A stretch of 64,000 nt of DNA from Actinospica robiniae DSM 44927. Its GTDB lineage: Bacteria > Actinomycetota > Actinomycetes > Streptomycetales > Catenulisporaceae. Where the stretch lies: assembly GCF_000504285.1 (NCBI RefSeq), contig NZ_KI632511.1:6244154-6308153 (forward strand), read 5' to 3'. A program made the translations under genes and the position numbers. The notes beneath the pieces are model-generated. The model was not told the DNA's origin. It made no database searches and worked only from the letters and a program-made list of their open reading frames with translations. Every line of letters begins with the position of its first letter. The first letter of the stretch is position 1. Positions 219 to 15,240 of this stretch are shown piece by piece.

Positions 219-1463
219 TCAGCGCTGGACGAGATCGAAGAGCCGGTCCCAGCGCTCGCCGATGACCTCGGGGGAGTACCGGGCCACCGATCCGGGCGCG
301 GCCGCGGCCAGCTTCGCGCGCAGTTCGGCGTCGTCCATCAGCCGGCCGAGCTGGTAGCCGAAGGTCTCGGTGTTTCCGGGTGTGACCAGTACGCCGTTGA
401 CCGTGGTCGTGCCGTCGCCGTCGGGCTCGTCGCCGCGCAGGATCTCACGCACGCCCGGGGCGCAGTCGAAGGCGATGCACGGCAGGCCGCACGAGAGCGC
501 CTCCAGCAGCGTCATCGGGAAGCCCTCCGCGCGTGAGGCGCTCAGGAAGAGCGAGCCGCCGAGCAGGGACTCGCGGACCTGATCGGTCGCGCCTTCGAAG
601 ACCACCGAGTCGGCCACGCCCAGCCGGGCCGCTTGAGCCTCGAGCCCGGCCCGGTCCGGCCCGTCGCCGTACAGCCGCAGCCGCCAGTCCGTCTCCGGCC
701 GGGCGAGCACGGCCTGGGCCCACGCCTCGAGCAGCAGGTCGTAGCCCTTCTCCTGGCTCAGCCGGCCGAGTGCGACGCAGGTGTGCGCAGCGGGGTCGGC
801 GCCGCCGGAAGCGGGCAGCGGCAGTGGATTCGCTATGGTCGTGGCGTTGTTCATCCCGCCCGAGACGGTCCAGTCGATCGCGTCCTGCTCGGTCAGCGCG
901 ACGAACCGGGGCAGGTCTCGGTAGAGGGTCTGCACCCGCTTGCCACGGGTGGAGTTCATCGACGCGGAGTAGGACTCGTGGCTCATCCCGATCACCGGGA
1001 TGCCGCGGGTGTCCGCCAGAGCGACCCACTCCATCGCGAGCACCTGCACGCACACCACCACCGCGTTGCGCGGGTCCAGCGGGGCCAGTATCCCGCTCAG
1101 AGCGGCCGCGCCGCGGTGCTGCAGGGCGCTCCAGCGGGCCCGACGCAGCGACACGGCCGGCTGTACCACCCGCTGGTACGGGGAAGGCGGGGCGACAGCC
1201 CGCAGCGGCCGCGGATGCAGCACGCTGGTCTCGTACGGCAGCGGGCCGTCGTGCTCGGCGGCGTAGTCGTGCGGCTTGGCCACCGCGCCCAGGCCGACCA
1301 GCCGCACCCGGTGGCCGCGCGCGGCGAGGATGTCCCCTATCGACCGGGTCCAGCGCTGGGCGCCGCCCGCCTCGTCGATGTTGTTCGCCACGATCACCAC
1401 GTCGCGCGGGGTGGCGGCCCGGGTGCTCGGGCACAGCCCGGCGGCCTCGTCCACGGTCATCAT
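219..1463 (-). CDS. Glycosyltransferase family 4 (GT-B)
   Basis: A 414-residue GT-B glycosyltransferase. The N-terminal domain begins VVIVANNIDEAGGAQR, a typical acceptor-side Rossmann start. The C-terminal domain has GRLSQEKGYDLLLEAW and, further on, SRAEGFPMTLLEALSCGLPCIAFD, which contains the EX7E-like donor site of GT4 enzymes. The ATG overlaps the stop of the upstream GT2-TagF gene by one base (TGATG), so the two are translationally coupled. It probably adds a sugar to the teichoic-acid-like polymer made by its neighbour; donor and acceptor cannot be read from sequence. The reading frame stays open far upstream of 1463, but that part is an Arg/Ala/Pro-rich shadow of the neighbouring gene. 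Confidence 0.88.
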   Translation of the reverse strand: MMTVDEAAGLCPSTRAATPRDVVIVANNIDEAGGAQRWTRSIGDILAARGHRVRLVGLGAVAKPHDYAAEHDGPLPYETSVLHPRPLRAVAPPSPYQRVVQPAVSLRRARWSALQHRGAAALSGILAPLDPRNAVVVCVQVLAMEWVALADTRGIPVIGMSHESYSASMNSTRGKRVQTLYRDLPRFVALTEQDAIDWTVSGGMNNATTIANPLPLPASGGADPAAHTCVALGRLSQEKGYDLLLEAWAQAVLARPETDWRLRLYGDGPDRAGLEAQAARLGVADSVVFEGATDQVRESLLGGSLFLSASRAEGFPMTLLEALSCGLPCIAFDCAPGVREILRGDEPDGDGTTTVNGVLVTPGNTETFGYQLGRLMDDAELRAKLAAAAPGSVARYSPEVIGERWDRLFDLVQR

Positions 1464-4369
1464 CACTTCCCGCCCTTCGCGAAGAAGCGCCGGTAGACCT
1501 GCTCCGCCGCGTCGCCTTGGTCGTATTCGCCGTAGCGCCGGGCGAAGGCGCGCCGGGTCTCGGCGTGGGAGTCCTCCACCGTCAGGGCCTTGATAGACTT
1601 GAAGAAGGCCTCCGGGTCGGTGGAGTAGGGACCCGGCGCCTCGGCCGCGAGATCGAAGTAGGTGCCCCGGTCCCGGGTGTAGTCCGCCTTGTCCGCCGCG
1701 AAGAAGAGCATCGGGCGGTCCAGCAGCGCGTAGTCGAACATGACCGAGGAGAAGTCCGTGACCAGGGCGTCCGAGGCGAGGAAGAGCTCGCTGACATCCG
1801 GGTGGTGCGAGACGTCCTGGACCGCGCCGCGCGCCGCGGGCGGGACCGCGACCGTGTTGAGGTAGTGCGCGCGCACCAGCAGTACGTGGGTGCGGCCGAA
1901 CTCGCGGGCGAAGTCCTCGAAGGAGAAACCCGGCTCGAACCGGCCGCTGCGCTGCCGGAAGGTCGGCGCGTACAACAGCACCGTGCGATCGGCCGGCAGG
2001 TTGAACCGGGCCCGCAGCGCGGCCGAGCGCTCGGCCACCTCCGGGCCGAGCAGGACGTCGTTGCGCGGGTAGCCGGTGCGCAGCGGCTCGGCCCGCATCT
2101 CGAACGCGTCCACCAGGGTCCTGATGTCGTACTCGGAGCGCACCAGGAAGGCGTCGAACCGGCCCACGCCGTGCACCAGGGCCTCGCGCTGCTCGGTCAG
2201 CATCGCGCGCACCTGCGGGGTGTTGACCCCCATGGTCTTCAGGGCCGTGCCGTGCCAGGTCTGGATGTACGTGGTCTGCTTGCGCTTGCCCATCCACTGC
2301 GGGAAGCCCTGGTTGTCCACCCAGAACTCCGCCCGGGCCAGCGCCCAGACGTATCCCCAGGACATCCGTCGGAGCAGGGCCGCTTCCTTGGGGAAGCCGT
2401 TGCCGTTCTCGGCATACGACCAGTACATCTTGCCCGTGTACTCGTGCCGGCGCAGCGCCTGGTAGAGGTACTTCGGGCTGTCGCTGTAGGACAGGCCGAG
2501 GTGCGACTCGAACACCACCGAGCCGCGCTTGACCGGCAGCCGGGCGAACAGCTGGAACGCGCGCCGCTTGACCCGGGTCTGGTTCGCCTTCTGCGCCAGG
2601 CGCATGCCCCGGCGCACCAGCCGCAGCAGCCGGCCGCCGCCGGTGCCGGTGGCGTTGGTCTCGAAGGACGCGTTGACCCTGCGCGCCACGAAGTTGCGCG
2701 CGGACAGCTGCAGGGTGACCACGCCGCGGTGGTTGATCCGCACCGTCCACCGGTCCCCGACCAGCCTGGTCAGCAGCGGGCGGGCCGGCAGCTCGAGCTG
2801 CGCCGCGCCCGGCGGCAGGTCGATCGCGGTGATCCGGGTGGCCATCGTGCCCAGGTCTCCGGCCTTGAGCCGCAACCGGAGCTCGAACATCGGGTCCACC
2901 ACACCCAGCGGCCGGACCGTGCGGCTGACGTCCACCTCGCCGGACCAGCGGATGCGGCTGCCCTCCTGCCGCACCTCGGTCAGCTTCACCCGGTACTTGC
3001 GCACCGCGCGTTGGCCGGGACCGAACTCGAAGTGCGCGCTCAGCGGAACGTCCGCGGGCACGCGGCCGAGCGAGTTGACCGTCTCGCCGGTCAGCCTGAT
3101 CCGCCCGGTCCGCCGGCCCGAGGCGACGACCTCGAGCCCGGTCAGCCGGCTGGCCAGGTTCGACTCGGCCAGCGAGAGCTGGTGGTAGCCGGCCTCGGTC
3201 ACGTCCAGAGCGATCCGGCCGAGCGCGTCGTCCAGGTGTCCGTCGTCGCACCAGTAGACGCGCCCGTCCCGCTCGACCAGGTCGGTGGTGATCCGGGTGC
3301 GGTCGAGCAGGTTCTCGCTGACGGTGACGAGGTTCGGCCAGTCTTCCCGCACCAGCAGGTACGCGCCGGCCACGGCGACCCGGTGCGCGCACTGCGCGAA
3401 GGCCTGCTCCAGCGGCAGGGTGAGCAGATAGTCCCGGAACAGCGCCCGGCACTCCTCGATGTACTCAGGCGTCTGATACGGAAGCTCGCGCAGATAGAGC
3501 ACCAGGTCGTGCTCGATGAACTTGACCGCCTTGGCCAGCCTGATCTCGGCCCGCCCCGCCTCGTCCGGGAAGCCGTCGAGCACCGCGTCCACCCGGCGGT
3601 GGATGCCGATCCGGTCGCGCACGTTGCCGATGTTCGAGCGCTGGTTGGAGATGGACTTGGCCGCCGCCCGGACCATGACCTCCCAGTAGTACACCGGGTT
3701 GGGGATCAGCACGATCCTGCGCGCATTGAGATACGCGGTCGCGGAGAAGAGCAGGTCCTCCCAGTGGAAGCCCTCGGGAAAGCGGATCGCGTGCTCGTTG
3801 AGGAACTCGCGCCGGTAGCACTTGTTGGTCGAGAGCGTGTCGCGAAGCAGGCCGGGCATGTCGGCGACGGAGTCGAGCACCTGGCGCCGGGTGTAGAGGT
3901 CCGGCCACCACGGCACGTCCTCGACGAGTCCGGAGCGGTTGACGTGCCGTCGGATGCAGAGCCCGGAGACGAGGTCCGCGTCGTTCTCCTCGGCGGCCTG
4001 AAGCATGTTCAGGCACGCGTGCCGGTCGAGCACGTCGTCGGAGTCGAGGAACATCACGTAGCGCCCTCGCGCGTGATCGATGCCCGTGTTGCGCGGCTTG
4101 GAGCAGCCGCCGCTGTTCTCCGGCAGCCGGTGGTAGCTCACCCGCGGATCCTGCGCCGCCAGCCGTTCGGCCACCTTCGGGGTGTCATCGCCGGAGTGGT
4201 CGTCGACGATGACCACTTCGACGTTGTGCAGCGTCTGCTCGAGCACCGAGCGCACCGCCGTCGGAAGCCGGGCCGCGTCGTTGTACCCGATGATGACGAC
4301 GGAGAGGTCCGGCGCCTGTACCTCGTTGTGCTCCGGCAAGACTTCCTCACTTGCGCTGTCGGGCGACAT
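1463..4369 (-). CDS. Bifunctional GT2 glycosyltransferase / CDP-glycerol glycerophosphotransferase (TagF-like)
   Basis: A ~968-residue fusion. The N-terminal third is a GT2 domain, with DLSVVIIGYND near residue 20 and a metal-binding FLDSDD near residue 108. The middle is beta-rich with no recognised family. The last ~370 residues are a TagF/TarF-type glycerophosphotransferase, with IQTWHGTALKTMG near residue 705 (conserved catalytic His), LLYAPTFR, and VTDFSSVMFDY near residue 873. It should transfer glycerol-phosphate from CDP-glycerol to a wall polymer at the inner membrane face. I chose the ATG at 4369 because the GT2 fold starts soon after it; upstream in-frame starts (to 4438) add a basic, unstructured stretch. 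It overlaps the GT4 gene by one base. Such GT2-TagF fusions are known in actinobacteria. Confidence 0.88.
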   Translation of the reverse strand: MSPDSASEEVLPEHNEVQAPDLSVVIIGYNDAARLPTAVRSVLEQTLHNVEVVIVDDHSGDDTPKVAERLAAQDPRVSYHRLPENSGGCSKPRNTGIDHARGRYVMFLDSDDVLDRHACLNMLQAAEENDADLVSGLCIRRHVNRSGLVEDVPWWPDLYTRRQVLDSVADMPGLLRDTLSTNKCYRREFLNEHAIRFPEGFHWEDLLFSATAYLNARRIVLIPNPVYYWEVMVRAAAKSISNQRSNIGNVRDRIGIHRRVDAVLDGFPDEAGRAEIRLAKAVKFIEHDLVLYLRELPYQTPEYIEECRALFRDYLLTLPLEQAFAQCAHRVAVAGAYLLVREDWPNLVTVSENLLDRTRITTDLVERDGRVYWCDDGHLDDALGRIALDVTEAGYHQLSLAESNLASRLTGLEVVASGRRTGRIRLTGETVNSLGRVPADVPLSAHFEFGPGQRAVRKYRVKLTEVRQEGSRIRWSGEVDVSRTVRPLGVVDPMFELRLRLKAGDLGTMATRITAIDLPPGAAQLELPARPLLTRLVGDRWTVRINHRGVVTLQLSARNFVARRVNASFETNATGTGGGRLLRLVRRGMRLAQKANQTRVKRRAFQLFARLPVKRGSVVFESHLGLSYSDSPKYLYQALRRHEYTGKMYWSYAENGNGFPKEAALLRRMSWGYVWALARAEFWVDNQGFPQWMGKRKQTTYIQTWHGTALKTMGVNTPQVRAMLTEQREALVHGVGRFDAFLVRSEYDIRTLVDAFEMRAEPLRTGYPRNDVLLGPEVAERSAALRARFNLPADRTVLLYAPTFRQRSGRFEPGFSFEDFAREFGRTHVLLVRAHYLNTVAVPPAARGAVQDVSHHPDVSELFLASDALVTDFSSVMFDYALLDRPMLFFAADKADYTRDRGTYFDLAAEAPGPYSTDPEAFFKSIKALTVEDSHAETRRAFARRYGEYDQGDAAEQVYRRFFAKGGK

Positions 4370-4530
4370 CGTCTGCCGCCCACCGTGCCCGGCCCCCATC
4401 CGGCCTACGCAGGGATGGTATCCGATCGGCCCGCGCACTACGGTTGCTGGCGATACCCGGGGATCCGAGCGGGCACGCTGGTTGGGTGAACCTTAGTTGA
4501 ACGACGGAACGACGCGCTAGGAGAAGTGCA

Positions 4531-6210
4531 TTGCGCACCGCAGCACCCACGGCCGTGCTCACCGGCCCGCAACCCGTGGACGGCGACGGCGTACTGCGCT
4601 CCGCTCTCGCCCGGCTCGGCATAACCGTGGTCACCGCGGACGGACCGGCCGCCACCGCCCGCGCCGTGGCCAGCGCCTCGGCCGGTGGGCGGGTCGCCCT
4701 GGTGGATCCGCGGCTGGCCGCCCACACGCACGCGCTGCGCCTGGCCCTGCTCGACTCGCGTTGGGAGGCCGCGCACGCGCCCGGGGTGCTCAGCGTGTCC
4801 GGCGAGGCCCGCGAGCGCCTGGCCGCGGAGCTGCGCGGGATGCCGGATCTGACGGGGCATCGGGTCGAGGGCGCCTCCCCGGCCGCCCGGCTCACCGCGC
4901 CCCGGCCGCTGCTGGCCGACGATTTCGCCGAGCGGCTCGGCTCCGGCGGCGTCCAGGTGCACGAGACCGCGCTGCCGGATGGCCTGGTCATGCGCCTGGT
5001 CGACGCGCCGCTCTCGGCGCGCAAGGACGTCTACGCGCAGATCGAGTCGGTGGACGACGAGGCGATCCGGCTGCGTCGCGCGGTCAAGAGCGACGACGGT
5101 CTGTTCACCACGTACTGCGTCTCCCCGTGGACCCGGTACCTGGCCCGCTGGTGCGCCCGGCACGGCTGGAGCCCGAACCTGGTCACCACGCTCTCCCTGC
5201 TGGTCGCGCTGGCCGGCGCGGGCGCGGCGATGACCGGTACCCGGGCCGGGTACATCGGCACCGCGGTCGCGCTCTACCTCTCCTTCGCGCTCGACTGCAC
5301 CGACGGGCAGCTGGCCCGCTACGCTCTGCGCTTCTCCCGGATCGGCTCCTGGCTGGACGCGACCTTCGACCGGGCCAAGGAGTACGCCGTCTACGCCGGC
5401 CTCGCCTTCGGCGCGGCCCGCGGCGGCGACCACGGCATCTGGCTGCTGGCCTCGGCGGCCATGGTGCTCCAGACCCTGCGCCACCACATCGACTTCGCCT
5501 ACCACGAGTCGCTACGCCCGGACCCGGGCATAGCCTCGGCCGACGCCCCGGCCAAGCCGGCCGAGGGGCGCGGCCCCGGGTACTGGGCCCGCAAGGTCGT
5601 GATCCTGCCGATCGGCGAGCGCTGGGCCCTGATCGCGCTGCTGACCGCCTTCACCCGGCCGCGGATCGTCTTCGCCACGCTGCTGATCTGGGGCCTGCTG
5701 GCAGCCCTCTACACCACCTTCGGCAGGGTCCTGCGATCGCAGCGGTCGGACCGGCCGCGCTCCGCGGCGGCGATCGACGCCCTGCGCGCGATGTGCGACC
5801 TGCCGCTGGCGATCCGGGCCACCGCGCGCGAGCCGTTCACCGCCCGGCTGGGCTGGCTGGCCCCGCCGCTGATCCAGCTGGTGTCCTACGTCGTGATGAT
5901 CGGCCTGATCTTCGGCGACCGGAAACTCGGCCCGGCCGCGTTCGCGCTGCTGGCCGCGGTGATCTACCACCACTACGACATCGTCTACCGGCTGCGCGCC
6001 GGGGCCGGCCAGATGCCCCGCTGGGTCGCCGTCGCGCTCGGCGGCAACCTCGGCCGCTCGGTGCTCGTGGTCGTGCTCGGCACCGGGCTGACCCACGGCA
6101 ACCCGCTGAGCCTGGCGATCTGGCTGCTCACCGCCTATCTGGCCGTGGTCGCGGTGGCCGAGTCGGTGCGGTTCTGGACCCGTCCGGCCGCCCCGGTGCT
6201 GCCGGACTGA
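4531..6210 (+). CDS. CDP-alcohol phosphatidyltransferase with N- and C-terminal extensions
   Basis: A 559-residue membrane enzyme. A TTG start is chosen because TAGGAGAA lies 7 bases upstream. Residues ~1-190 form a soluble domain of unknown role. The CAPT core follows: DCTDGQLAR, then eight residues, then GSWLDATFD. This matches the complete D-x2-D-G-x2-A-R-x8-G-x3-D-x3-D motif with all four Asp. Several membrane segments surround it and continue in the C-terminal ~200 residues (I recall this architecture as DUF5941 proteins, not verified). CAPT enzymes join a CDP-activated alcohol to a second alcohol. Position beside TagF-like, G1P-dehydrogenase-like and TagGH-like genes suggests a lipid anchor or linkage step for a glycopolymer. 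It is divergent from the TagF-like gene across ~160 bp. Confidence 0.82.
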   Translation: MRTAAPTAVLTGPQPVDGDGVLRSALARLGITVVTADGPAATARAVASASAGGRVALVDPRLAAHTHALRLALLDSRWEAAHAPGVLSVSGEARERLAAELRGMPDLTGHRVEGASPAARLTAPRPLLADDFAERLGSGGVQVHETALPDGLVMRLVDAPLSARKDVYAQIESVDDEAIRLRRAVKSDDGLFTTYCVSPWTRYLARWCARHGWSPNLVTTLSLLVALAGAGAAMTGTRAGYIGTAVALYLSFALDCTDGQLARYALRFSRIGSWLDATFDRAKEYAVYAGLAFGAARGGDHGIWLLASAAMVLQTLRHHIDFAYHESLRPDPGIASADAPAKPAEGRGPGYWARKVVILPIGERWALIALLTAFTRPRIVFATLLIWGLLAALYTTFGRVLRSQRSDRPRSAAAIDALRAMCDLPLAIRATAREPFTARLGWLAPPLIQLVSYVVMIGLIFGDRKLGPAAFALLAAVIYHHYDIVYRLRAGAGQMPRWVAVALGGNLGRSVLVVVLGTGLTHGNPLSLAIWLLTAYLAVVAVAESVRFWTRPAAPVLPD

Positions 6211-6360
6211 GCCGTCTGCCCCCGAGCCGCTCGTCCGGCCTGCCCGGCCGCCGGCTTCTGTGTAGCAATGGGCGTTCATGTTGATTTTTGTTAGAGTGTG
6301 TAGCGCAAGCGTGACAGCGCGGGCGCGAACGGGCGCCACCTTCCCAGTAAGGTCATCGAC

Positions 6361-7347
6361 ATGACGACATGGCTTGTTACCGGCGGGGCCGGATATATCG
6401 GATCGCACGTGACCCGTGCGCTGCTCGCCGCCGGCGAGGGGGTCGTCGTGGTGGACGACCTGTCCACCGGCGGCAAGGACCGGCTGCCGGACGGGGTGGC
6501 GGCCGAGATCGCGAAGGTGCACGACCGCGCCGCTCTCGAGCAGCTGGTCCAGACCCACCGGGTCGGCGGCGTGATCCACATCGCCGCCAAGAAGCGCGTC
6601 GGCGAGTCGGTCGACCGCCCCACCTGGTACTACGAGGAGAACCTGGAGGGCCTGCGCACCCTGCTCGACGTGGCCGTGGCCGCCGGGATCGACAAGTTCG
6701 TCTTCTCCTCCTCCGCCGCCGTCTACGGCGAGGTGGACGTGGACCTGGTCACCGAGCAGACCCCGTGCACGCCGGCGTCCCCCTACGGTGAGACCAAGCT
6801 CGTCGGCGAGTGGATGATCAAGGGCGTCGCCCGCGCCCAGCAGCTGGCCGGCCGCGACTTCGGCTACGCCAACCTGCGCTACTTCAACGTCGCCGGCGCC
6901 GGTGCCCCCGAGCTCGGCGACCCGGTCGCGCTCAACCTCATCCCGATGGTCTTCGAGAAGCTCGAAGCCGGCCAGGCCCCGCTGATCTTCGGCGACGACT
7001 ACGGCACGCCGGACGGCACCTGCATCCGCGACTACATCCACGTCGCCGACCTGGCCGAGGCGCACGTGGCCGCCGCGCTGCGGCTCGGCCGCGACCCGAA
7101 GACGGCGCTCACGCTCAACCTCGGCACCGGCACCGGCGCCTCGGTCAAGGAGGTCATCACCACCATCCTCGACCACACCGGCATCGACCTGCCCCCGGTC
7201 ATCGTCCCGCGCCGTCCCGGCGACCCGGACCGCCTGGTCGCCTCGGCCGAACGCGCCCGCGAGGAGCTCGGCTGGAGCGCCACCCGCGACCTGGCCGAGA
7301 TGATCTCCTCCGCCTGGACCGGCTGGCGTCACCGGCACGACACCTGA
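6361..7347 (+). CDS. galE: UDP-glucose 4-epimerase
   Basis: A 328-residue extended SDR, the usual GalE length. The N-terminus has the NAD-binding GGAGYIGSH. The catalytic triad region reads SSSAAVYG followed by PYGETK, which carries the YxxxK pair. NLRYFNVAGA and CIRDYIHVADLAEAH are GalE signatures. It interconverts UDP-glucose and UDP-galactose in the cytoplasm. Lying inside the glycopolymer cluster, it probably supplies UDP-galactose for decoration of the polymer. The ~150 bp upstream is locally AT-richer (around 6262-6300) and is the likely promoter region, but I cannot assign firm -35/-10 boxes. Confidence 0.93.
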   Translation: MTTWLVTGGAGYIGSHVTRALLAAGEGVVVVDDLSTGGKDRLPDGVAAEIAKVHDRAALEQLVQTHRVGGVIHIAAKKRVGESVDRPTWYYEENLEGLRTLLDVAVAAGIDKFVFSSSAAVYGEVDVDLVTEQTPCTPASPYGETKLVGEWMIKGVARAQQLAGRDFGYANLRYFNVAGAGAPELGDPVALNLIPMVFEKLEAGQAPLIFGDDYGTPDGTCIRDYIHVADLAEAHVAAALRLGRDPKTALTLNLGTGTGASVKEVITTILDHTGIDLPPVIVPRRPGDPDRLVASAERAREELGWSATRDLAEMISSAWTGWRHRHDT

Positions 7348-7414
7348 GGTAACGAGGGGGGAACGGGGCTCGGCCGTGTATCTACCGGGCGGTTAAGCCG
7401 ATAAGCTGTCGGCC

Positions 7415-8197
7415 ATGATCGGACTGATCCTCGCCGCCGGCGCCGGCCGCCGCCTGCTCCCCTACACCGAAACGCTGCCCAAGGCCCTGGTGCCGGTGGA
7501 TGAGGAGCGCGGCCTGACCGTGCTCGACCTGACCCTGGCGAACTTCGCCGAGGTGGGCCTGACCGAGGCCGCGATCGTGGTCGGCTACCGGGCCGAGGCC
7601 GTGCAGGCCCGCCACGCCGAGCTCGAAGAGCGCTACGGACTGCGGATCGAGCTGGTCTTCAACGACAAGGCCGAGGAGTGGAACAACGCGTACTCGCTGT
7701 GGTGCGCGCGCGACCTGTTCAAGCAGGGCGTGATCCTGGCCAACGGCGACACCGTGCACCCGGTCTCGGTCGAGCGCACCCTGCTCGCCGCCCACGAGCG
7801 CGACCCGCAGGCCCGCGTCCTGCTCGCCCTCGACGACGTCAAGTCGCTGGCGGACGAGGAGATGAAGGTGATCGGCTCGGCCGCCGAGGGCGTTCGGCGT
7901 ATCACGAAGCTGATGGACCCGGCCGCCGCGGCCGGCGAGTACATCGGCGTCACGCTCATCACGCCGGAGGCCGCCGAGCCGCTGGCCGACGCGTTGCGCG
8001 CCACCTTCGAGCGCGACCCGCAGCTCTACTACGAGGACGGCTACCAGGAGCTGGTGGACCGCGGCTTCCGGGTCGACCTCGCCCCCATCGGCAAGATCGA
8101 CTGGGTCGAGGTGGACAACCACGACGACCTGGCCAAGGCGCGCGCCATCCTCGCCGCCCGCGCCGCGGCCGAGGCCGCGTCGGCCCCGGGCGCCTGA
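7415..8197 (+). CDS. Sugar-phosphate/polyol-phosphate nucleotidyltransferase (LicC/IPCT-like)
   Basis: A 260-residue nucleotidyltransferase. The N-terminus GLILAAGAGRRLLPYT and following PKALVPV are the nucleotide-binding signature. WNNAYSLW and the terminal IDWVEVDNHDDLAKAR are typical of LicC-like phosphocholine and inositol-phosphate cytidylyltransferases rather than hexose-1-phosphate enzymes. Its stop overlaps the start of the glycerol-1-phosphate-dehydrogenase-like gene (TGATG), so product and substrate may be linked. Inference: it could activate glycerol-1-phosphate or a related polyol-phosphate to its CDP form for the TagF-like polymerase or the CAPT enzymes. No TagD-type (HxGH) cytidylyltransferase is visible in the window. 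Confidence 0.82.
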   Translation: MIGLILAAGAGRRLLPYTETLPKALVPVDEERGLTVLDLTLANFAEVGLTEAAIVVGYRAEAVQARHAELEERYGLRIELVFNDKAEEWNNAYSLWCARDLFKQGVILANGDTVHPVSVERTLLAAHERDPQARVLLALDDVKSLADEEMKVIGSAAEGVRRITKLMDPAAAAGEYIGVTLITPEAAEPLADALRATFERDPQLYYEDGYQELVDRGFRVDLAPIGKIDWVEVDNHDDLAKARAILAARAAAEAASAPGA

Positions 8198-9267
8198 TGG
8201 CCGTCCTCAGCCGGCTGATCCAGGCTCCGGCTGCGGTGCGGATCGGCTCCGGAGTCGCCTCCGAGCTGCCGACCGTCCTGGCCGATCAGCGCATCTCCGT
8301 CTCCGGCAAGCTCGCCCTGGCGGTCAGCGAGGGCTCCGGGGTGCGGCTGCGCCAGCGGCTGAGCGCCGACCTGCCCGGAGACGTCGGCTGGTTCACCGTC
8401 AGCCGGGCCAGCCTGGACGCCGCGGTCGACCTGGCCGACCAGATCCGCGGAGCCGGGGCCGGGTACGACACGCTCGTCGCCGTCGGCGGCGGCAAGGTCA
8501 TCGACGCCGCCAAGTACGCCGCGGCCCGGCTCGGCCTGCCGCTGGTCGCCGTCGCCACCAACCTCGCCCACGACGGCATCTGCTCCCCGGTCGCGACCCT
8601 GCAGAACGACGCGGGCACCGGCTCCTACGGCGTGCCCAGCCCGATCGGCGTGCTCGTCGACCTCGACCTGGTCCGCGAGGCGCCGGCCCGGTTCGTGCGC
8701 TCCGGCATCGGCGAGGCCCTGTCCAACCTCTCCGCCCTGGCCGACTGGGAGCTGTCCCACCGCGAGACCGGCGAGCAGGTCGACGGCTTGGCCGCGGCGA
8801 TGGCCCGCACCGCCGCCGAGGCCGTGCTGCGCCAGCCCGGCACCATCGCGGACGAGGGCTTCCTGGCCGTGCTCGCGGACGCGCTCGTGCTCTCCGGCCA
8901 GGCCATGACCGTCTGCGGCACCAGCCGGCCCAGCTCCGGCGCCTGCCACGAGATCAGCCACGCGATAGACCAGCTCTACCCGCGGCTGTCCACCCAGCAC
9001 GGCGAGCAGTGCGGCGTCGGCGCGACCTTCGCCACGCACCTGCGCGGCGACGCCGAGCGCGCGGCCGACATGGCCCGGGTACTGACGCACCATGAACTCC
9101 CGGTTACCCCCGGGGATCTAGGACTTGGTATCGATCAGTTCGTCGAAGCGGTAGCCTACGCGCCGCGGACTAGACCAGGTAGGTACACCATTCTGGAGCA
9201 CCTGGATCTCAGCCCGGACGAGATCCACGACGCGGTGAAGGACTATGTCGCTACCTACGCTCGATGA
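8197..9267 (+). CDS. Iron-containing alcohol dehydrogenase family, glycerol-1-phosphate dehydrogenase-like
   Basis: A 356-residue protein of the class that includes archaeal sn-glycerol-1-phosphate dehydrogenase (EgsA) and bacterial AraM. VAVGGGKVIDAAKYAA is the NAD(P)-binding loop, with AHDGICSPVA after it. GACHEISHAID and a later HGEQCGVG supply the metal-binding His residues. The start is set by the TGATG overlap with the upstream nucleotidyltransferase, and its end overlaps the next CAPT gene by 23 bp. The expected reaction is reduction of dihydroxyacetone phosphate to sn-glycerol-1-phosphate, the opposite stereoisomer to normal bacterial glycerol-3-phosphate. Activity and stereochemistry are inferred from family only. 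A few residues near the C-terminus could vary without affecting this call. Confidence 0.85.
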   Translation: MAVLSRLIQAPAAVRIGSGVASELPTVLADQRISVSGKLALAVSEGSGVRLRQRLSADLPGDVGWFTVSRASLDAAVDLADQIRGAGAGYDTLVAVGGGKVIDAAKYAAARLGLPLVAVATNLAHDGICSPVATLQNDAGTGSYGVPSPIGVLVDLDLVREAPARFVRSGIGEALSNLSALADWELSHRETGEQVDGLAAAMARTAAEAVLRQPGTIADEGFLAVLADALVLSGQAMTVCGTSRPSSGACHEISHAIDQLYPRLSTQHGEQCGVGATFATHLRGDAERAADMARVLTHHELPVTPGDLGLGIDQFVEAVAYAPRTRPGRYTILEHLDLSPDEIHDAVKDYVATYAR

Positions 9268-10012
9268 ACTCCGCGCGGTCGTCCAGCCGCAGGAGAAGAT
9301 GCAGCGCCGCAACGGCGAGCACTGGGCCGGCCGGATGTACATGCGCAAGATCTCCCTGCGCACCACCCGCCTGCTGGTCAACTCGCCGATCACCGCGAAC
9401 GGCTACACCTACCTGATGATCGTGGCCGGCGTGCTGGCCGGCCCCGCGCTGCTGATCCCCGGCATCGCCGGCGCCGTGCTCGGCGCCGTGTTCGTCCAGC
9501 TCTACCTGCTGCTCGACTGCGTGGACGGCGAGCTGGCCCGCTGGCGGCAGCAGACCTCGATCGTCGGGGTCTACCTCGACCGGATCGGCGCCTACATGGC
9601 CGAGGCCGCGTTCCTGGTCGGGCTCGGCTTCCGGGCCTCGCACCTGCACGCCGACGTCTGGGCCGTGCTGGGCCTGGCCACCGCGGTGTGCGTGCTGCTG
9701 ATCAAGTCCGAGAGCGACCTGGTCGACGTCGCCCGCGCCCGGGCCGGCCTGACCGCCGCCACCGAGGGCTCGGTCACCCCGCGCGCCGCCGGCGCCGCCA
9801 AGCTGCGCTCGGTCGCCCAGATCTTCAAGGTGCACCGGCTGATCGTCGGCATCGAGTCCTCGCTGCTGGTGCTCCTGGCCGGGATCGCCGACCTGTTCGC
9901 GCACAACCAGCCGTTCACCCGGGCCGCCGTGGTCGTGCTCTTCGTCATCGCAGCCGTCATGGTCGTGCTGCACTTCGTCTCCATCGTGCTTTCGAGCCGG
10001 CTGAAGTCCTAG
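9245..10012 (+). CDS. CDP-alcohol phosphatidyltransferase (fourth motif Asp replaced)
   Basis: A 255-residue integral membrane protein with about six hydrophobic segments. The CAPT motif runs from D91: DCVDGELAR, eight residues, then GVYLDRIGA. Asp91, Asp94 and Asp112 are present, but the residue at the fourth Asp position (116) is Ala. In the family the fourth Asp is the proposed catalytic base, so this protein may be altered in mechanism or inactive. It overlaps the dehydrogenase-like gene by 23 bp and precedes the GT2 gene by 8 bp, so it sits within one operon. Substrate unknown; a CDP-polyol made by the two upstream enzymes is the natural guess. Confidence 0.82.
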   Translation: MSLPTLDELRAVVQPQEKMQRRNGEHWAGRMYMRKISLRTTRLLVNSPITANGYTYLMIVAGVLAGPALLIPGIAGAVLGAVFVQLYLLLDCVDGELARWRQQTSIVGVYLDRIGAYMAEAAFLVGLGFRASHLHADVWAVLGLATAVCVLLIKSESDLVDVARARAGLTAATEGSVTPRAAGAAKLRSVAQIFKVHRLIVGIESSLLVLLAGIADLFAHNQPFTRAAVVVLFVIAAVMVVLHFVSIVLSSRLKS

Positions 10013-10020
10013 GAGCGCGC

Positions 10021-10914
10021 GTGGGCACGATGCGACTGGGCGCGGTCATCCTGACCATGGGAAACCGCCCCGAAGAACTGCAGGACCTGCTCCGGTCGGT
10101 GGCCGAGCAGAAGGGCGACCCGATCGACGTGGTCGTCGTCGGCAACGGCATCAAGGCCTCGCAGCTGCCCGGCCTCGAGCTGGCGCGCACCCTCGACCTG
10201 CCGGAGAACCTCGGCATCCCGGGCGGCCGCAACCGCGGCTTCGACCTGCTGCTCGCGCTCCCGGCCGAACAGCGCCCCGAGGCCGTGCTCGTCCTCGACG
10301 ACGACGGCAAGCTCGACGGCCCCGAAGCCGCCGAGCGCATCCGCGCCGCCTTCGAGGCCGACCCGCACCTGGGCATCGTCTCGTTCCGCATCTGCGACCC
10401 GGTCAGCGGCGAGGTGCAGCGCCGGCACGTGCCGCGGGTGCGCGTCGGCGACCCCAACCGCTCCAGCAAGGTCACCACCTTCCTCGGCGGCGCCAGCGCC
10501 ATCCGCACCGCCGTGATCGACCAGGTCGGCGGCCTGCCGGACGACTGGTTCTACTGCCACGAGGAGACCGACCAGGCCTGGCGGGCGCTGGACGCGGGCT
10601 GGTCCATCGAATACCGCGCCGATCTGACGCTGCTGCACCCCAAGTCCCTGCCGAGCCGCCACGCCACCTACGCGTACAACGTGGCGCGCAACCGAGTGTG
10701 GCTCGCCCGGCGTAATCTTCCAGGGGTGCTCATTCCGGCTTATCTCGGAGTTTGGGCGGCATTGACCCTCGCCCGCACGCGGAACCGGGATATCCTCCGG
10801 GTCTGGCTCCGTGGCTTCGCGGCCGGCTGGCGCACCCCGTGCGGCCCGAGGCGGCCGATGAGCTGGACCACCGTGTGGCGGATGACCCGACTGGGCCGGC
10901 CGCCGGTGATCTAG
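10021..10914 (+). CDS. Glycosyltransferase family 2
   Basis: A 297-residue GT-A enzyme. The start is GTG at 10021, with AGGAG at 10011-10015 overlapping the previous stop; the next ATG (10030) is too far from that site. LGAVILTMGNRPEEL opens the Rossmann-like fold. VLVLDDDGKLD provides the DxD metal site and FLGGASAIR the acceptor loop. WFYCHEETDQAWRALDAGW resembles rhamnosyl/galactofuranosyl-type GT2 enzymes. It probably acts on the lipid-linked precursor before export by the ABC pair encoded immediately downstream. The precise sugar cannot be read. Confidence 0.88.
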   Translation: MGTMRLGAVILTMGNRPEELQDLLRSVAEQKGDPIDVVVVGNGIKASQLPGLELARTLDLPENLGIPGGRNRGFDLLLALPAEQRPEAVLVLDDDGKLDGPEAAERIRAAFEADPHLGIVSFRICDPVSGEVQRRHVPRVRVGDPNRSSKVTTFLGGASAIRTAVIDQVGGLPDDWFYCHEETDQAWRALDAGWSIEYRADLTLLHPKSLPSRHATYAYNVARNRVWLARRNLPGVLIPAYLGVWAALTLARTRNRDILRVWLRGFAAGWRTPCGPRRPMSWTTVWRMTRLGRPPVI

Positions 10915-10975
10915 CCGTCGGAGCCCGCGGAGCCGAGCGGGCCACGACGGATGGATCGAAAGTCAGGCGAAGGCA

Positions 10976-11953
10976 GTGAGCGAGTCCGCCGAGATTGTCA
11001 TCGAGGAGCTCCCGGCTCCTCCGGTCGACGCCGAGTACGCCCAGCTCGGCGGCATCGGAATGGCGGGCAAGTACGGCCTCAGGCAGAGCGGCAAGCGTCC
11101 GCCGCTGTCCCAGTACGGCAGCGTGCTGTGGCAGCGGCGCCACTTCATCACCGGCTACGCCACCGCGAAGAACCGCTCGCTCTACTCGAACGCACGGCTC
11201 GGCCAGCTCTGGCAGCTGCTCACCCCGGTGCTCAACGTCGGGGTCTACTACTTCGTCTTCGGCATCCTGCTGAGCATCAGCCGCGGTGTGCCGGACTTCC
11301 TGCTGTTCCTGGTCATCGGCGTCTTCCTGTTCAACTTCCTCTCGACCGCGATGATCAACGGCTCGCGCTCGATCAGCGACCAGCTCGTGCTGATCCGGGC
11401 GCTGCACTTCCCCCGGGCCAGCCTGCCGATCTCCTCGACCCTGATCCAGCTCCAGCAGCTGGGCTTCTCGATGGTGATCGTCTGCGTGGTCGCGCTGATA
11501 CAGGGCGAGGGCGTGAACTGGCGCTGGCTGCTGATCATCCCGGCGCTGGCGCTGCTGACGCTGTTCTCGGCCGGCATGGCCATGGTCGTGGCGCGGATGG
11601 GCTCGGTGCTCACCGACACCGCGCAGCTGCTGCCGTTCCTCACCCGTACCTGGATGTACCTCTCCGGCGTGATGTACAGCATCTCCTCGGTGGCCAAGGG
11701 CAACGTGCCGCACTGGGTCGAGCTCGTGCTCTACTACAACCCGCCGGCCCTGTTCATCACGGTCGTGCGCAACTGCATGATCCACATTCCCCCGGCCAGC
11801 TCGTACCCGAGCCCGGCGGACTACCACTCCGCGGTCCAGTCCATGCACCAGCCCGGCCACGCCTGGCCGGCCCTGGTGCTGTGGGCGCTGATCGCCGGCG
11901 TCGGCGGGTTCGTGTACTTCTGGAAGGCGGAGGAGCAGTACGGCCGTGGCTGA
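10976..11953 (+). CDS. ABC-2 type polysaccharide/teichoic acid exporter, permease (TagG-like)
   Basis: A 325-residue permease with a ~70-residue N-terminal cytoplasmic tail and about six membrane helices, including YYFVFGILLSI, LLFLVIGVFLFNFL and MVIVCVVALI, and ending in a last helix near VLWALIAGVGGFVYFW. TWMYLSGVMYSI before the large extracytoplasmic loop is typical of ABC-2 polysaccharide exporters. The GTG start follows GAAGG. Its 3' end overlaps the ATPase gene by 8 bp. Together they should flip a lipid-linked wall polymer across the membrane, as TagGH does for teichoic acid. The adjacent TagF-like gene supports a teichoic-acid-type substrate. Confidence 0.9.
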   Translation: MSESAEIVIEELPAPPVDAEYAQLGGIGMAGKYGLRQSGKRPPLSQYGSVLWQRRHFITGYATAKNRSLYSNARLGQLWQLLTPVLNVGVYYFVFGILLSISRGVPDFLLFLVIGVFLFNFLSTAMINGSRSISDQLVLIRALHFPRASLPISSTLIQLQQLGFSMVIVCVVALIQGEGVNWRWLLIIPALALLTLFSAGMAMVVARMGSVLTDTAQLLPFLTRTWMYLSGVMYSISSVAKGNVPHWVELVLYYNPPALFITVVRNCMIHIPPASSYPSPADYHSAVQSMHQPGHAWPALVLWALIAGVGGFVYFWKAEEQYGRG

Positions 11954-12860
11954 GAACCCGAACATCCTGCCCAGCCAGATCCTGCGCGCGATCCAGGGCG
12001 TGGGGACCGAGCACACCCTGTCCGAAGAGGATCTGCAGCGGATGCGCACGCAGATCCTCGAGGAGCGGGCCAAGCGGCGAGCCGAGGCGGCCAACAATCA
12101 GCCGACCGTGATCGTGGACAACCTCAACATCATCTACCGGATCCACGGCGCCGGCACCGGCCGCGGCTCGGCCAGCGGCGCGCTCTCCCGGATCGTCGTG
12201 CGCCGCGCCGCGCCCACGGTCAAGGAGGTGCACGCGGTGCGCGGGATCTCCTTCGTGGCCCGCCGCGGCGAGAGCATCGGCCTGATCGGGCGCAACGGCT
12301 CGGGCAAGTCCACCACCCTGGCCGCGGTGGCCGGCCTGCTGCCGCCCGAGAAGGGCGGCGCCGTCTACACCGACGGCCAGCCCTCGCTGCTCGGCATCAA
12401 CGCCGCGCTGATGCCGGACCTGACCGGCGAGCGCAACGTCATCGTGGGCTGCCTCGCCATGGGCATGTCCAAGGCCGAGGCGAACGCGCGCTACCGCGGG
12501 ATCGTGGACTTCTCCCGGATCGAGGAGACCAACCCGCACGCGATGAGCCTGCCGATGAAGGCCTACTCCTCCGGCATGGCCGCCCGGCTGCGCTTCGCCA
12601 TCGCCGCGTCGCGCGAGCAGGACGTGCTGATGATCGACGAGGCGCTGGCCACCGGCGACGCGAAGTTCCAGAAGCAGAGCGAGCAGCGGATCCGGGAGCT
12701 GCGCGCCAGCGCGGGCACCGTGTTCGTGGTCAGCCACTCCATGAGCGCGATCCGCGACACCTGCGATCGGGCGATCTGGATCGAGGCGGGCAGGGTCCTG
12801 ATGGACGGCGACGTGGACGAGGTCGCGAACGCCTACGAGCAGTGGTCGAAGCAGAGCTGA
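11946..12860 (+). CDS. ABC transporter ATP-binding protein, polysaccharide/teichoic acid exporter (TagH-like)
   Basis: A 304-residue ATPase paired with the permease just upstream (8-bp overlap, GTG start). An N-terminal ~40-residue tail precedes the nucleotide-binding domain. Walker A is GRNGSGKST. The signature lies in YSSGMAARLRFAIA, where SSGM is the form usual in polysaccharide exporters. Walker B is VLMIDEAL, and the H-loop is FVVSHSM. There is no long C-terminal carbohydrate-binding module, so the substrate is not recognised in the way seen for Wzt-type exporters. It powers export of the lipid-linked polymer made by the surrounding enzymes. Confidence 0.92.
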   Translation: MAENPNILPSQILRAIQGVGTEHTLSEEDLQRMRTQILEERAKRRAEAANNQPTVIVDNLNIIYRIHGAGTGRGSASGALSRIVVRRAAPTVKEVHAVRGISFVARRGESIGLIGRNGSGKSTTLAAVAGLLPPEKGGAVYTDGQPSLLGINAALMPDLTGERNVIVGCLAMGMSKAEANARYRGIVDFSRIEETNPHAMSLPMKAYSSGMAARLRFAIAASREQDVLMIDEALATGDAKFQKQSEQRIRELRASAGTVFVVSHSMSAIRDTCDRAIWIEAGRVLMDGDVDEVANAYEQWSKQS

Positions 12861-12946
12861 GATGCGCGAACGCATGACGGGCCGCGCGCGCGGCCCGCTG
12901 GGGAGTGCCCGGAATCCGGGCCGGAGGATAGAGGCGGGTCGCAGGC

Positions 12947-13939
12947 ATGCGGATCGACGGCAAGGCCTTCCTGCTTCTGTTAGGCGTGGGCACGCTCGCC
13001 CTGGCCGCGGCCACGGTGTGGCTCTGGCCGAGGCTGGCCGGCTCCGGCGCCAAGGCGCTGATCGGCCGTAGCAGCCTCCTGCTCGGCACCCAGCTGGCGC
13101 TGGCGGCGACGTTCCTGTTCGCGGTGAACGCCTGGGGCGGGTTCTACACGTCCTGGGGTCAGCTGTTCGGCACGGCGTCGGCGAAGTACAGCGTCACCGA
13201 CAGGGGCGCTGCGGACGCGGGCCAATACGACGCGAAGGCACTCGACGGCGTGGCCAGGTGGCCAAGGGCCTCGCGCGCCGGCCTGTCCGGAGCGCGTCTC
13301 AGTGGCCTGCGCAGCGGCCTGGACGCCGGCCTCCAGATCTATCCGCCCGCCGACTACGCGACCCGGCGCGACGAGCACCGCCGCTTCCCGGTCGAGATCG
13401 TCGACCTGACCGGCGGCGCGGCGGGCCTGAGCGCGGCGACGTATCAGCAGGTCGCGAACACGTACCAGGTCATGGTGGCGGTCGTCACGAGCAGCGTGCA
13501 GGACATCCCGGGCGTGGACGTCCCCGACGGCCGGCAGGGCCGGCTGTTCTGGGCGCAGGACCTGCAGGCCGCCCTGACCGCGCACTACCGCCTCGACCCG
13601 TACGCACCCGACTGGGGCATCGCCGGCGTCGGCCCTGACGGCACGGCCGCGGTGAACCTGGCCGTGCAGGACCCGTCCCACTACGGCCTCGCCGCCGCGG
13701 CAGGGGACTGGACCCACACCGACCCGCAGCAGAGCTGGCCCGGCATCGGGAAGTACCTCGCGTCCGTCCCCACTCCGAACATCAGCCTGCTGTATGACCC
13801 GAGCGCAGGGGCCATCCCGCAGCGGCTGAGGGCGACCAGCGGCGCGCTCAAGGTCACCCGACAACGAGGCCTGACACTTCTCGGCGAACTCGACTGGCTC
13901 GGCCAGACCATCGACGCGAACGCGGACGCCCGCGCATGA
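12947..13939 (+). CDS. Membrane-anchored esterase-like protein lacking the catalytic Ser (pseudo-enzyme)
   Basis: A 330-residue protein with two N-terminal membrane segments (FLLLLGVGTLALAAATVWLW and LLLGTQLALAATFLFAV) and an extracytoplasmic domain. It is a paralogue of the next gene: both share the layout two helices, GFY-S-W-LFG, IYPP/VYLPP, FWAQD, then a WG nucleophile elbow. Where the partner has WGLMGDSTGGD, this protein has WGIAGVGPDGT, so the nucleophile Ser is replaced by Gly. The partner's C-terminal GGHNFATW, likely holding the catalytic His, is also missing. It is therefore probably catalytically inactive and may bind the polymer or the active partner. It ends with an ATGA overlap onto that partner. 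Confidence 0.75.
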   Translation: MRIDGKAFLLLLGVGTLALAAATVWLWPRLAGSGAKALIGRSSLLLGTQLALAATFLFAVNAWGGFYTSWGQLFGTASAKYSVTDRGAADAGQYDAKALDGVARWPRASRAGLSGARLSGLRSGLDAGLQIYPPADYATRRDEHRRFPVEIVDLTGGAAGLSAATYQQVANTYQVMVAVVTSSVQDIPGVDVPDGRQGRLFWAQDLQAALTAHYRLDPYAPDWGIAGVGPDGTAAVNLAVQDPSHYGLAAAAGDWTHTDPQQSWPGIGKYLASVPTPNISLLYDPSAGAIPQRLRATSGALKVTRQRGLTLLGELDWLGQTIDANADARA

Positions 13940-15096
13940 ACCTGACGGGCACCCTGCTCGCGGCGCTCCTGGCCGCCGCGACCGTCGCCGCGTTCGCCGG
14001 CGTGATCCTGCTGTGGCGCAGGCTCGCGAAGCGGAACTGGCGCGCCGTACTCGGCCGCATCGGCGTGTTGGGCGGCGCCCAGCTGATGGTGGTGCTCCTC
14101 GTGGCCGTACTGGCCAACGACTACTTCGGCTTCTACGGCTCCTGGCACGAGCTCTTCGGCATGGCGACGCCCGCCTCCACCGGCGACGCCCGGCCCCTCG
14201 TCGCCCGCGCCTCCCAAGGCCGGCAGCGCCTCCTCACCGTCCAAGCCGTCAACGGCCTGAACGTCCCCGGCGGCAGCGCCCCCGAGGTGACCGGCCAGAC
14301 CCAGGACGTGACGATCCAAGGCAGGATCACCGGCCTGAGCACGCAGGCGATCGTCTACCTCCCGCCCCAGTACTTCCAGCCCGCGTACGCGCGCTACCGC
14401 TTCCCGGTCGCGATCGTCTCCACCGGCTACCCCGGCACCCTCAGCGCGCTGGAGGACCGGCTGAAGTACCCCTACCGCCTGCTGACCGGCATCAAAGGCC
14501 ACACCGACAAGCCGATAGTGCTGGTGATGACGCAGCCCTCGCCCACCAGCGTCGGCGGCACCGACACCGAGTGCACGAACGTCCCCGGCGGCCCGCAAGT
14601 CGACACCTTCTGGGCCCAGGACATCCCCGCCGCCGTCGAGCAGGCCTACCCCCGCGTAGCCGACGGCCCGAGAGCCTGGGGCCTGATGGGCGACAGCACC
14701 GGCGGCGACTGCGCGTTGAAGGTCTCGATGATGAACTCCGATCGCTTCAGCGCCGCCGTGTCCCTGTCCGGCGACTACAACGCTCCTGAGGACATCACCA
14801 CCGGCAACCTGTACCAGACCCGCCAGTTCCGCGACGAGAACGACCCGATGTGGCGCGTGCGCAACCTCCCCAAGCCCCCCATCGCCGTCCTGCTGGCCAC
14901 CAGCCTCAGCGGCGAGAACGACCTGCCCTCAGTCCTCGAGTTCGAACGCCTCACCCGCGGCACCCCCCTGCACACCTCCACGCTGCTGCGCAACGAAGGC
15001 GGCCACAACTTCGCCACCTGGAACGCCGAGATAGCCCCCGCGCTCCAGTGGCTGACCAACACCCTGGCCTCGCCCACTCCGGCGCCGGAGGTGTAG
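13936..15096 (+). CDS. Membrane-anchored alpha/beta-hydrolase (putative esterase, esterase D-like)
   Basis: A 386-residue protein with two N-terminal membrane helices and an extracytoplasmic hydrolase domain of the esterase D/mycolyltransferase-like type. The nucleophile elbow is GLMGDSTGGD (GxSxG-like), an Asp is available downstream, and the terminal GGHNFATW supplies the His. It overlaps its inactive paralogue by four bases (ATGA). Being directly downstream of a teichoic-acid-type export pair, it may add or remove ester substituents on the exported polymer at the outer membrane face; this is inference. A tRNA-Arg gene on the other strand begins ~70 bp downstream. Confidence 0.78.
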   Translation: MNLTGTLLAALLAAATVAAFAGVILLWRRLAKRNWRAVLGRIGVLGGAQLMVVLLVAVLANDYFGFYGSWHELFGMATPASTGDARPLVARASQGRQRLLTVQAVNGLNVPGGSAPEVTGQTQDVTIQGRITGLSTQAIVYLPPQYFQPAYARYRFPVAIVSTGYPGTLSALEDRLKYPYRLLTGIKGHTDKPIVLVMTQPSPTSVGGTDTECTNVPGGPQVDTFWAQDIPAAVEQAYPRVADGPRAWGLMGDSTGGDCALKVSMMNSDRFSAAVSLSGDYNAPEDITTGNLYQTRQFRDENDPMWRVRNLPKPPIAVLLATSLSGENDLPSVLEFERLTRGTPLHTSTLLRNEGGHNFATWNAEIAPALQWLTNTLASPTPAPEV

Positions 15097-15167
15097 GCGT
15101 AGGTGTAGGGGGTGGGTGGTGGCGGGCTCGATGGAGTCGAGACGGACTCCGCCCGCTGGTGAGTGGG

Positions 15168-15240
15168 TGCCCTCGGCGCGATTCGAACGCGCGACCTACC
15201 GCTTAGGAGGCGGTTGCTCTATCCCCTGAGCTACGAGGGC
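15168..15240 (-). tRNA. tRNA-Arg (anticodon CCT)
   Basis: The minus strand folds as a cloverleaf of 73 nt. The acceptor stem GCCCTCG/CGAGGGC is fully paired. The D-arm is GCTC...GAGC, the anticodon stem ACCGC/GCGGT encloses the loop CTCCTAA (anticodon CCT), and the T-arm GCGCG/CGCGC encloses TTCGAAT. The discriminator is A and CCA is not encoded. Confidence 0.95.

Follow-up and report, generated by a model that had tools for sequence, protein, structure and literature searches.

In Streptomyces, the locus for wall teichoic acid (WTA) is anchored by the genes for L21 and L27, with TarIJ and TagF encoded nearby, and the wall polymers of this genus act as receptors for umbrella toxins (PMC13274773, a 2025 Cell paper). 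The actinomycetes concerned here are reported to be without LtaS, a point left open in the paper on lipoteichoic acid (LTA) from S. hygroscopicus (PMC3196553). Bacterial genes for glycerol-1-phosphate dehydrogenase (G1PDH) have been listed among possible archaeal-lipid genes (PMC6431249), and one syntenic region that combines araM, tagG and tagH with genes for a CDP-alcohol protein and a sugar-phosphate nucleotidyltransferase has been noted in relation to both the biosynthesis of teichoic acids and secondary metabolism, in a description that gives no pathway for it (PMC13118837). In Caulobacter, the COG1213 CTP:phosphoglycerate cytidylyltransferase CpgD, which is unrelated to TagD, makes CDP-glycerate, a three-carbon CDP compound that its authors liken to CDP-glycerol in WTA synthesis (PMC12275187). 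Here we describe a 64,000-nucleotide stretch of Actinospica robiniae DSM 44927 (contig NZ_KI632511.1, positions 6,244,154 to 6,308,153; hereafter the window), in which the gene for a LicC/IPCT-type nucleotidyltransferase (NTP) is joined end to start with that for an EgsA/AraM-type G1PDH. We propose that the NTP-G1PDH pair is likely to be a supply module for CDP-(sn-glycerol-1-phosphate) (CDP-G1P) that feeds envelope glycopolymers. The parts are known and the combination is new; the locus itself is real and conserved, and we found no report of the pair as a CDP-G1P source in searches of an open-access library.

In the proposed route, G1PDH would convert dihydroxyacetone phosphate to sn-glycerol-1-phosphate (G1P), and NTP would join G1P with CTP to give CDP-1-glycerol. 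This compound would then act as the phosphoglycerol donor for TagF-family and/or DUF5941-type enzymes, with glycosylation following and the finished product leaving through a TagGH-like transporter. Its likely users in this organism would be the TagF-type polymerase encoded next to the operon, another TagF-type protein encoded elsewhere in the genome and/or the DUF5941-type phosphotransferase of the window. TagD would be replaced by an unrelated enzyme that works with the opposite glycerol enantiomer. To our knowledge, few bacteria have sn-G1P as an ordinary metabolite, which would explain why the pair comes with a dehydrogenase of its own, something that TagD can do without. Both reactions, their stereochemistry, the acceptor and the polymer we infer from sequence. 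Among polymerases of the TagF kind, Cps7D accepts CDP-1-glycerol in vitro and Cps3D does not (PMC8262930).

Results

The protein families, the coupling of the genes, the lack of detectable TagD, TarI or PcrB, and the patterns of co-occurrence and exclusion are all direct observations. The start codon of G1PDH lies within the stop codon of NTP, at a TGATG junction (CCTGATGG), and the G1PDH gene in turn overlaps by 23 bases the gene for a CDP-alcohol phosphotransferase-like membrane protein (CDPAP2; Table 1). A preliminary description of this DNA had recognised the joined LicC/IPCT-type and EgsA/AraM-type genes, whose coordinates and families hold, and a CDP-alcohol phosphatidyltransferase after G1PDH, which indeed matches PF01066. 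Its cluster of TagF with TagGH stands in part, the TagGH-like pair lying inside 4531–12860 and the minus-strand TagF gene adjoining that interval from outside, and the CDP-alcohol phosphotransferase encoded at 4531–6210 was absent from it. It also saw no TagD, and this now extends to the whole source genome (9.92 Mb, a single contig, 98% complete): a TagD elsewhere that would overturn the idea was sought with TIGR01518, which gave 0 matches at E ≤ 1e-3 and, as a control, matched in 12 of 14 genomes, above its cut-off in 2.

The pairing was followed through a class sample of 296 genomes (thresholds of E ≤ 1e-20 for G1PDH and E ≤ 1e-40 for NTP). G1PDH is present in 73 genomes, NTP in 72 and both in 71; of the three unpaired genomes, two (G084 and G097) stop at a contig edge and one (G113) has a distant homologue. 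Across 35 loci chosen for diversity from this sample (L037–L071, with two loci each from G133, G163 and G269), NTP adjoins G1PDH in 32. The exceptions are L057, a distant G1PDH scored as a miss in the neighbourhood counts, L058, where NTP lies about 10 kb away on the same contig, and L069, which has no NTP at the locus. In a second set, the best 80 named loci from one contig scan and all from actinomycetes, the pair occurs in 79, with overlapping genes in 78. CDPAP2 accompanies the pair in 25/35 chosen and 73/80 named loci, and because six of the 80 named loci keep the pair without CDPAP2, NTP goes with G1PDH more than with CDPAP2. In Actinospica acidithermotolerans (L089), the nearest named relative by locus (83% for NTP), the order of all 12 window genes searched (219–15096) is kept; since NTP also adjoins G1PDH in 79/80 named loci, the arrangement is not due to chance. 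Among three non-actinomycete records, those of a Cytobacillus and a Nitratidesulfovibrio plasmid show G1PDH relatives with no NTP among the annotated neighbours, and a Pseudomonas plasmid has an NTP relative beside a CDP-alcohol protein and no G1PDH. At the locus with the distant NTP, a TarS-linker glycosyltransferase gene stands divergently beside the G1PDH copy (L058:10815–12476), which again hints that G1PDH may be connected with the decoration of teichoic acids.

G1PDH scores 237 bits (E 2e-70) against NF002022, the model for NAD(P)-dependent G1PDH. This is under the equivalog cut-off of 413 but is by far the best model score, the glycerol dehydrogenase model reaching 72 bits. Chains named glycerol-1-phosphate dehydrogenase (4rgq, 5fb3) are among its top solved relatives. 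We take the metal ligands of the family to be Asp, His and His, and the two presumed ligand histidines, H251 and H268, are invariant in 57/57 aligned G1PDHs.

The best solved relative of NTP by sequence is LicC (1jyk, E 3e-13), with IPCT (4jd0) matched at E 4e-10. Its residues R13, K23 and D112, invariant in 17/17 and 32/32 aligned sequences, align with the Arg, Lys and Asp of 4jd0; these are the catalytic residues named for IPCT and CpgD (PMC12275187). The predicted fold (pLDDT 94) matches PntC (Z 27.2), sugar nucleotidyltransferases (about 25), IPCT (24.2) and LicC (23.4), and such predicted-fold matches do not discriminate the substrate. The obvious candidate is G1P, because the partner dehydrogenase, if true to its family, yields this compound. 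The likeness to IPCT in both sequence and fold also suits a different scheme, modelled on the IPCT/DIPPS and glycerophosphoinositol pathways, in which NTP would make CDP-inositol or another CDP-alcohol and G1P would be the acceptor, giving a glycerophospho-inositol type compound through the CDP-alcohol phosphotransferases. NTP, CDPAP2 and the DUF5941 protein do weakly resemble the model for a bifunctional inositol-phosphate cytidylyltransferase/DIPP synthase, far under its cut-off. We nevertheless regard this scheme as quite improbable, given that the WTA site near rplU, described below, has the pair with neither CDPAP2 nor a DUF5941 protein alongside.

Other known routes for CDP-polyols or G1P were likewise not found in the source genome. 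TarI was not found there beyond IspD: PF01128 gives two hits, of which the strong one is an IspDF fusion that adjoins a CarD-like gene, both identified by visual inspection of the sequence, and the other is weak, at 36 bits. PcrB/GGGPS is the known bacterial user of G1P, and its family (PF01884) has no match in any of 60 genomes of the order, the source genome included, with matches in 7 of 14 control genomes. This bears on an archaeal-type ether lipid, for which G1PDH would supply the backbone as AraM does for PcrB in Bacillus, with NTP an unrelated neighbour. The family membership of G1PDH fits such a route, and a published survey credits some Streptomyces with the full set of three archaeal lipid genes, among them that for GGGPS (PMC6431249). 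Against it stand the missing PcrB and the near-invariant coupling of NTP to G1PDH; we reject the ether lipid route for this order on the PF01884 result and give it hardly any probability for the pair as such.

Genomes with the pair tend to encode TagF. A TagF-family gene is present in 68 of the 71 pair genomes, as against 49 of the 225 others, and TagD above 100 bits in 0 of the 71, as against 22 of the 225. In 14 genomes, the source included, the pair and TagF occur with zero TagD-family matches and without a second IspD-type gene. At 5/36 loci TagF is encoded no more than about 10 kb away from the pair, where 0.28 are expected from gene numbers and genome sizes; without the window itself the figure is 4/35 (p 2e-4). 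The genome lists and counts behind the pairing, TagF-source and expected-proximity figures were compiled by hand from tables. The source genome has two TagF-family (PF04464) genes, the window copy and one at L195:5180–16062 (source genome C1:5398001–5418000). The latter gene, for a GT2-TagF protein of 1235 aa, lies about 2 kb from a TagG/TagH pair of its own, in a locus that also holds an AftA-like arabinofuranosyltransferase and a GT2; this locus, too, is probably devoted to a wall polymer.

In nine Streptomyces genomes an additional copy of G1PDH stands immediately upstream of rplU, at the published WTA locus. They comprise three of the 27 sampled Streptomyces (G133, G163 and G269) and, by name, S. 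hygroscopicus subsp. hygroscopicus NBRC 3401, S. griseoluteus, S. olivaceoviridis, S. murinus, Streptomyces sp. Ru62 and Streptomyces sp. SID9727. NTP accompanies this copy in 8/9 (the copy of G133 is without NTP and still counted among the nine), rne lies upstream in 8/9, the ninth locus sequence ending early, and no CDPAP2 or DUF5941 gene stands beside the rplU-site pair copies. In other genomes this neighbourhood belongs to TarIJ: of the 15 sampled genomes with a second IspD-type gene, 13 have TarIJ no more than about 9 kb past obg. Such a second IspD-type (TarI) gene occurs in 0/9 two-copy genomes and in 19/31 one-copy genomes (24 sampled Streptomyces plus seven named genomes, one of them Actinospica; Fisher p 0.0014); set against the 24 one-copy sampled Streptomyces, 15 of which have it, the result is again p 0.0014. 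One genome (G335), which has NTP alone at its rplU site and gives no match to PF01128, so that it may be incomplete, was omitted from this comparison. The pattern is that of an apparent cassette exchange between the NTP-G1PDH pair and TarIJ.

Known polymers give a hint in the same direction, the chemistry agreeing with gene content in the two species that could be matched. In S. hygroscopicus NRRL 2387T, the LTA and the closely similar WTA are reported to be poly(glycerol phosphate) polymers (PMC3196553), and in S. hygroscopicus NBRC 3401 (L120) the extra pair is present and TarI was not found. The WTA of S. griseus has a ribitol phosphate chain (PMC13274773), and S. griseus BIG105 (L096) has TarI and one G1PDH. 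Of the 27 sampled Streptomyces, at least 23, including the TarIJ genomes G018 and G112, have a DUF5941-type gene beside the pair, as does S. griseus. It is therefore probable that the copy at the DUF5941 locus works for a lipid-linked or LTA-type product and that the copy at the rplU site works for wall teichoic acid. Separately, the rne–rplU gap accepts several envelope-sugar cassettes: in some Streptomyces it holds genes for an NTP-transferase, a nucleotide-sugar dehydratase, an RmlD-type protein and a TarS-like glycosyltransferase (L179:4563–9500).

CDP-alcohol phosphotransferases share the motif D1xxD2GxxAR...GxxxD3xxxD4. The DUF5941 protein of the window has it complete, and its nearest NCBIfam model, under cut-off, is archaetidylinositol phosphate synthase; the predicted structure is poor (pLDDT 56), and nothing is built on the resemblance of its N-terminal 150 residues to alternating helix and strand. 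CDPAP2 has Ala in place of D4. Across its class this position is A in 59, H in 40 and D in 1 of 100 motif matches, whereas D4 is kept in 85/85 matches outside the class, the DUF5941 protein of the window included. For this reason CDPAP2 is not accepted as an ordinary phosphatidyltransferase, and its use of CDP-glycerol is doubtful. Should one of the CDP-alcohol phosphotransferases of the operon consume CDP-glycerol, the better candidate in the source genome would be the DUF5941 protein, with its full motif. Complementarity between the CDPAP2 residue at D4 and the motif state of the DUF5941 protein was sought by eye, and none was seen. Within the CDPAP2 subfamily (the window protein and 46 homologues), an Asp or Glu is conserved four residues past the lost D4 site in 47/47 aligned sequences. 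At L051:11282–12987 and some other loci of group f18, the DUF5941 protein gives no match to the motif, which it seems to have lost, and keeps its DUF5941 part and its NTP, G1PDH and CDPAP2 neighbours.

These enzymes raise the possibility, which we take seriously without expecting it, that the main users of CDP-1-glycerol, or of a related CDP-alcohol, are the DUF5941 protein and CDPAP2. They would attach phosphoglycerol to a lipid of the membrane or to a lipid-linked glycan, for GT2 and TagGH to complete and export, and TagF would be a neighbour with no link through a substrate. The frequent company of CDPAP2 and the pair, the intact D4 of the DUF5941 protein and the proximity of TagF in just five of the 36 loci favour it. 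So do L054 and L062, where an intact-motif CDP-alcohol phosphotransferase is encoded directly 3′ of G1PDH (family shown for L054). The missing D4 of CDPAP2 speaks against it, as do the rplU-site copies, which have no adjoining CDPAP2 and are not found together with TarI. The supply of CDP-G1P would be the same step as in our preferred proposal, and the consumer alone would differ.

Several observations weigh against the pair as a source of CDP-G1P for an envelope polymer. CDPAP2 is without D4, and the window G1PDH has Glu173 at the presumed metal-ligand Asp, a position that is Asp in 55/57 aligned sequences and Glu in two (the window and one other), with Glu also in 5/77 named-locus motif matches, Actinospica included. 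As 3-dehydroquinate synthases have Glu at that position, the Glu173 site may, by analogy, still bind metal. The absence of TagD above 100 bits from the pair genomes depends on a cut set after the table was seen, and weaker TagD-family matches occur in 46/71 pair genomes, with none in the source genome; these counts cover the class sample, the 14 named genomes of the TarI comparison lying outside that search. The co-occurrence counts ignore kinship, and genomes of the same family are not independent: 27 of the 71 pair genomes are from a single genus (group f2 g2), taken as Streptomyces. Within the 27-genome sample alone, the exclusion of TarI is 0/3 against 15/24 (p 0.075). The strains of known polymer chemistry differ from those sequenced, and S. 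griseus WTA also has a terminal glycerol phosphate (PMC13274773). Because the DUF5941-locus copy coexists with TarIJ, CDP-G1P there needs another use than the WTA main chain. CpgD, the nearest precedent, was tested with glycerol-1-phosphate and did not use it (PMC12275187). Finally, 34 of 117 TagF-family genomes have neither the pair, nor TagD above 100 bits, nor a second PF01128 gene, so there must be further sources, unless part of the TagF family works with different donors; the pair as a necessary CDP-polyol source wherever TagF occurs is rejected on this count. The earlier suggestion that CDP-G1P feeds an envelope polymer, the best model on hand, gains strong comparative support from the coupled genes, their co-occurrence with TagF and the apparent exchange with TarIJ, tempered by CDPAP2, by Glu173 and by a likely consumer, TagF, that lies outside the interval and is near the pair at few loci.

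The other genes around the pair are given in Table 1. GT4 and the GT2-TagF fusion gene are transcribed divergently from the plus-strand operon that begins at 4531, and a GT2 gene, at 10021–10914 in the window, follows CDPAP2 in most loci. The genes of the TagG-like and TagH-like proteins overlap by 8 bases; the top named models for the TagH-like ATPase, under their cut-offs, are teichoic acid exporters, with the galactan exporter Wzt close behind. After tagH come two overlapping genes (12947–15096), membrane-anchored esterases by eye, that are kept in Actinospica L089. An open reading frame at 15163–15636, starting MGALGAIRTRDLPLRRRLLYPLSYEGA, overlaps a tRNA-Arg gene (15166–15240) and is probably spurious. 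On plasmid p1 of Streptomyces fungicidicus (L085:16862–25044), the hopanoid genes hpnC, hpnD, hpnE, shc and hpnH directly follow the operon.

Table 1 Genes around the NTP-G1PDH pair, in window coordinates.
Feature	Coordinates	Strand	Basis
GT4 glycosyltransferase	219..1460	minus	PF13692/PF00534; same place in Actinospica L089
TagF-type polyol-phosphate polymerase	1463..4438	minus	C-terminal PF04464 E 2e-95; N-terminal GT2 PF00535 E 1e-32
CDP-alcohol phosphotransferase with C-terminal DUF5941	4531..6210	plus	PF01066, PF19365; full motif
UDP-glucose 4-epimerase GalE	6361..7347	plus	TIGR01179 317 bits, exceeds cut-off
LicC/IPCT-type nucleotidyltransferase (NTP), proposed CTP:sn-glycerol-1-phosphate cytidylyltransferase	7415..8197	plus	PF00483 E 2e-11
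EgsA/AraM-type glycerol-1-phosphate dehydrogenase (G1PDH)	8197..9267	plus	NF002022 237 bits
CDP-alcohol phosphotransferase-like membrane protein (CDPAP2)	9245..10012	plus	PF01066; Ala at fourth motif Asp
GT2 glycosyltransferase, weakly GlfT1-like	10021..10914	plus	PF00535; NF050113 E 2e-5, under cut-off
ABC-2 type permease, TagG/Wzm-like	10976..11953	plus	PF01061
ABC ATPase, TagH-like	11946..12860	plus	PF00005; PRK13545/13546 best NCBIfam, under cut-offs

Discussion

The proposed role of the NTP-G1PDH pair would give actinomycetes without a strong TagD match a concrete way to obtain activated glycerol phosphate, and could explain how many Streptomyces-type bacteria supply their teichoic-acid-like polymers. 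Our proposal predicts a wall polymer of opposite handedness to that of Bacillus, and suggests for the G1P dehydrogenases of actinomycetes a function outside the membrane, which bears on the debate over the 'lipid divide'. Since umbrella toxins bind Streptomyces wall polymers, a switch of polyol supply at the WTA locus is also of ecological interest. A wider and rather unlikely extension, put forward tentatively, is that actinomycetes make both glycerol-phosphate LTA and WTA in the cytoplasm from pair-derived CDP-G1P. If true, this would explain poly(glycerol phosphate) LTA in Streptomyces without LtaS and the shared structure of LTA and WTA in S. hygroscopicus, and would make actinomycete WTA the mirror image of that of Bacillus. 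The DUF5941-NTP-G1PDH-CDPAP2-GT2-TagGH operon would then be a general Streptomyces unit for assembly of LTA or a lipid anchor, and most 'archaeal' G1PDH genes of actinomycetes would be wall genes, not remnants of an archaeal-type membrane.

Among described systems, the CDP-ribitol supply by TarIJ in Streptomyces likewise combines a cytidylyltransferase with a reductase, in the neighbourhood of rplU-rpmA-obg and of genes for TagF (PMC13274773). TarI differs in being IspD-type (PF01128), with an open frame of 533–561 aa in four genomes, and was not found in the nine genomes with G1PDH at the rplU site. CpgD resembles NTP in that the Arg, Lys and Asp named for it are present in NTP, as judged through the alignment with IPCT 4jd0 and not with CpgD itself; it differs in its phosphoglycerate substrate and ceramide lipid product (PMC12275187). 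AraM of B. subtilis and EgsA of archaea belong to the same dehydrogenase family as the window G1PDH, judged from solved G1PDH chains and not from an alignment with AraM; in contrast to them, the window enzyme has no PcrB/GGGPS partner that we could find and is tied to a nucleotidyltransferase instead. Rodrigues et al. in 2017 reportedly described glycerol-phosphate cytidylyltransferases of glycerophosphoinositol synthesis and discussed the choice of enantiomer by the enzyme that forms CDP-glycerol. The TagD-TagF-TagGH system of B. subtilis 168 is matched in the window by a TagF-family polymerase and TagGH-like export beside the proposed CDP-glycerol supply. Compared with it, the source genome has no detected TagD, the cytidylyltransferase is of the LicC/IPCT family, and the window adds its own G1P dehydrogenase, which would provide the opposite enantiomer, together with extra CDP-alcohol phosphotransferases.

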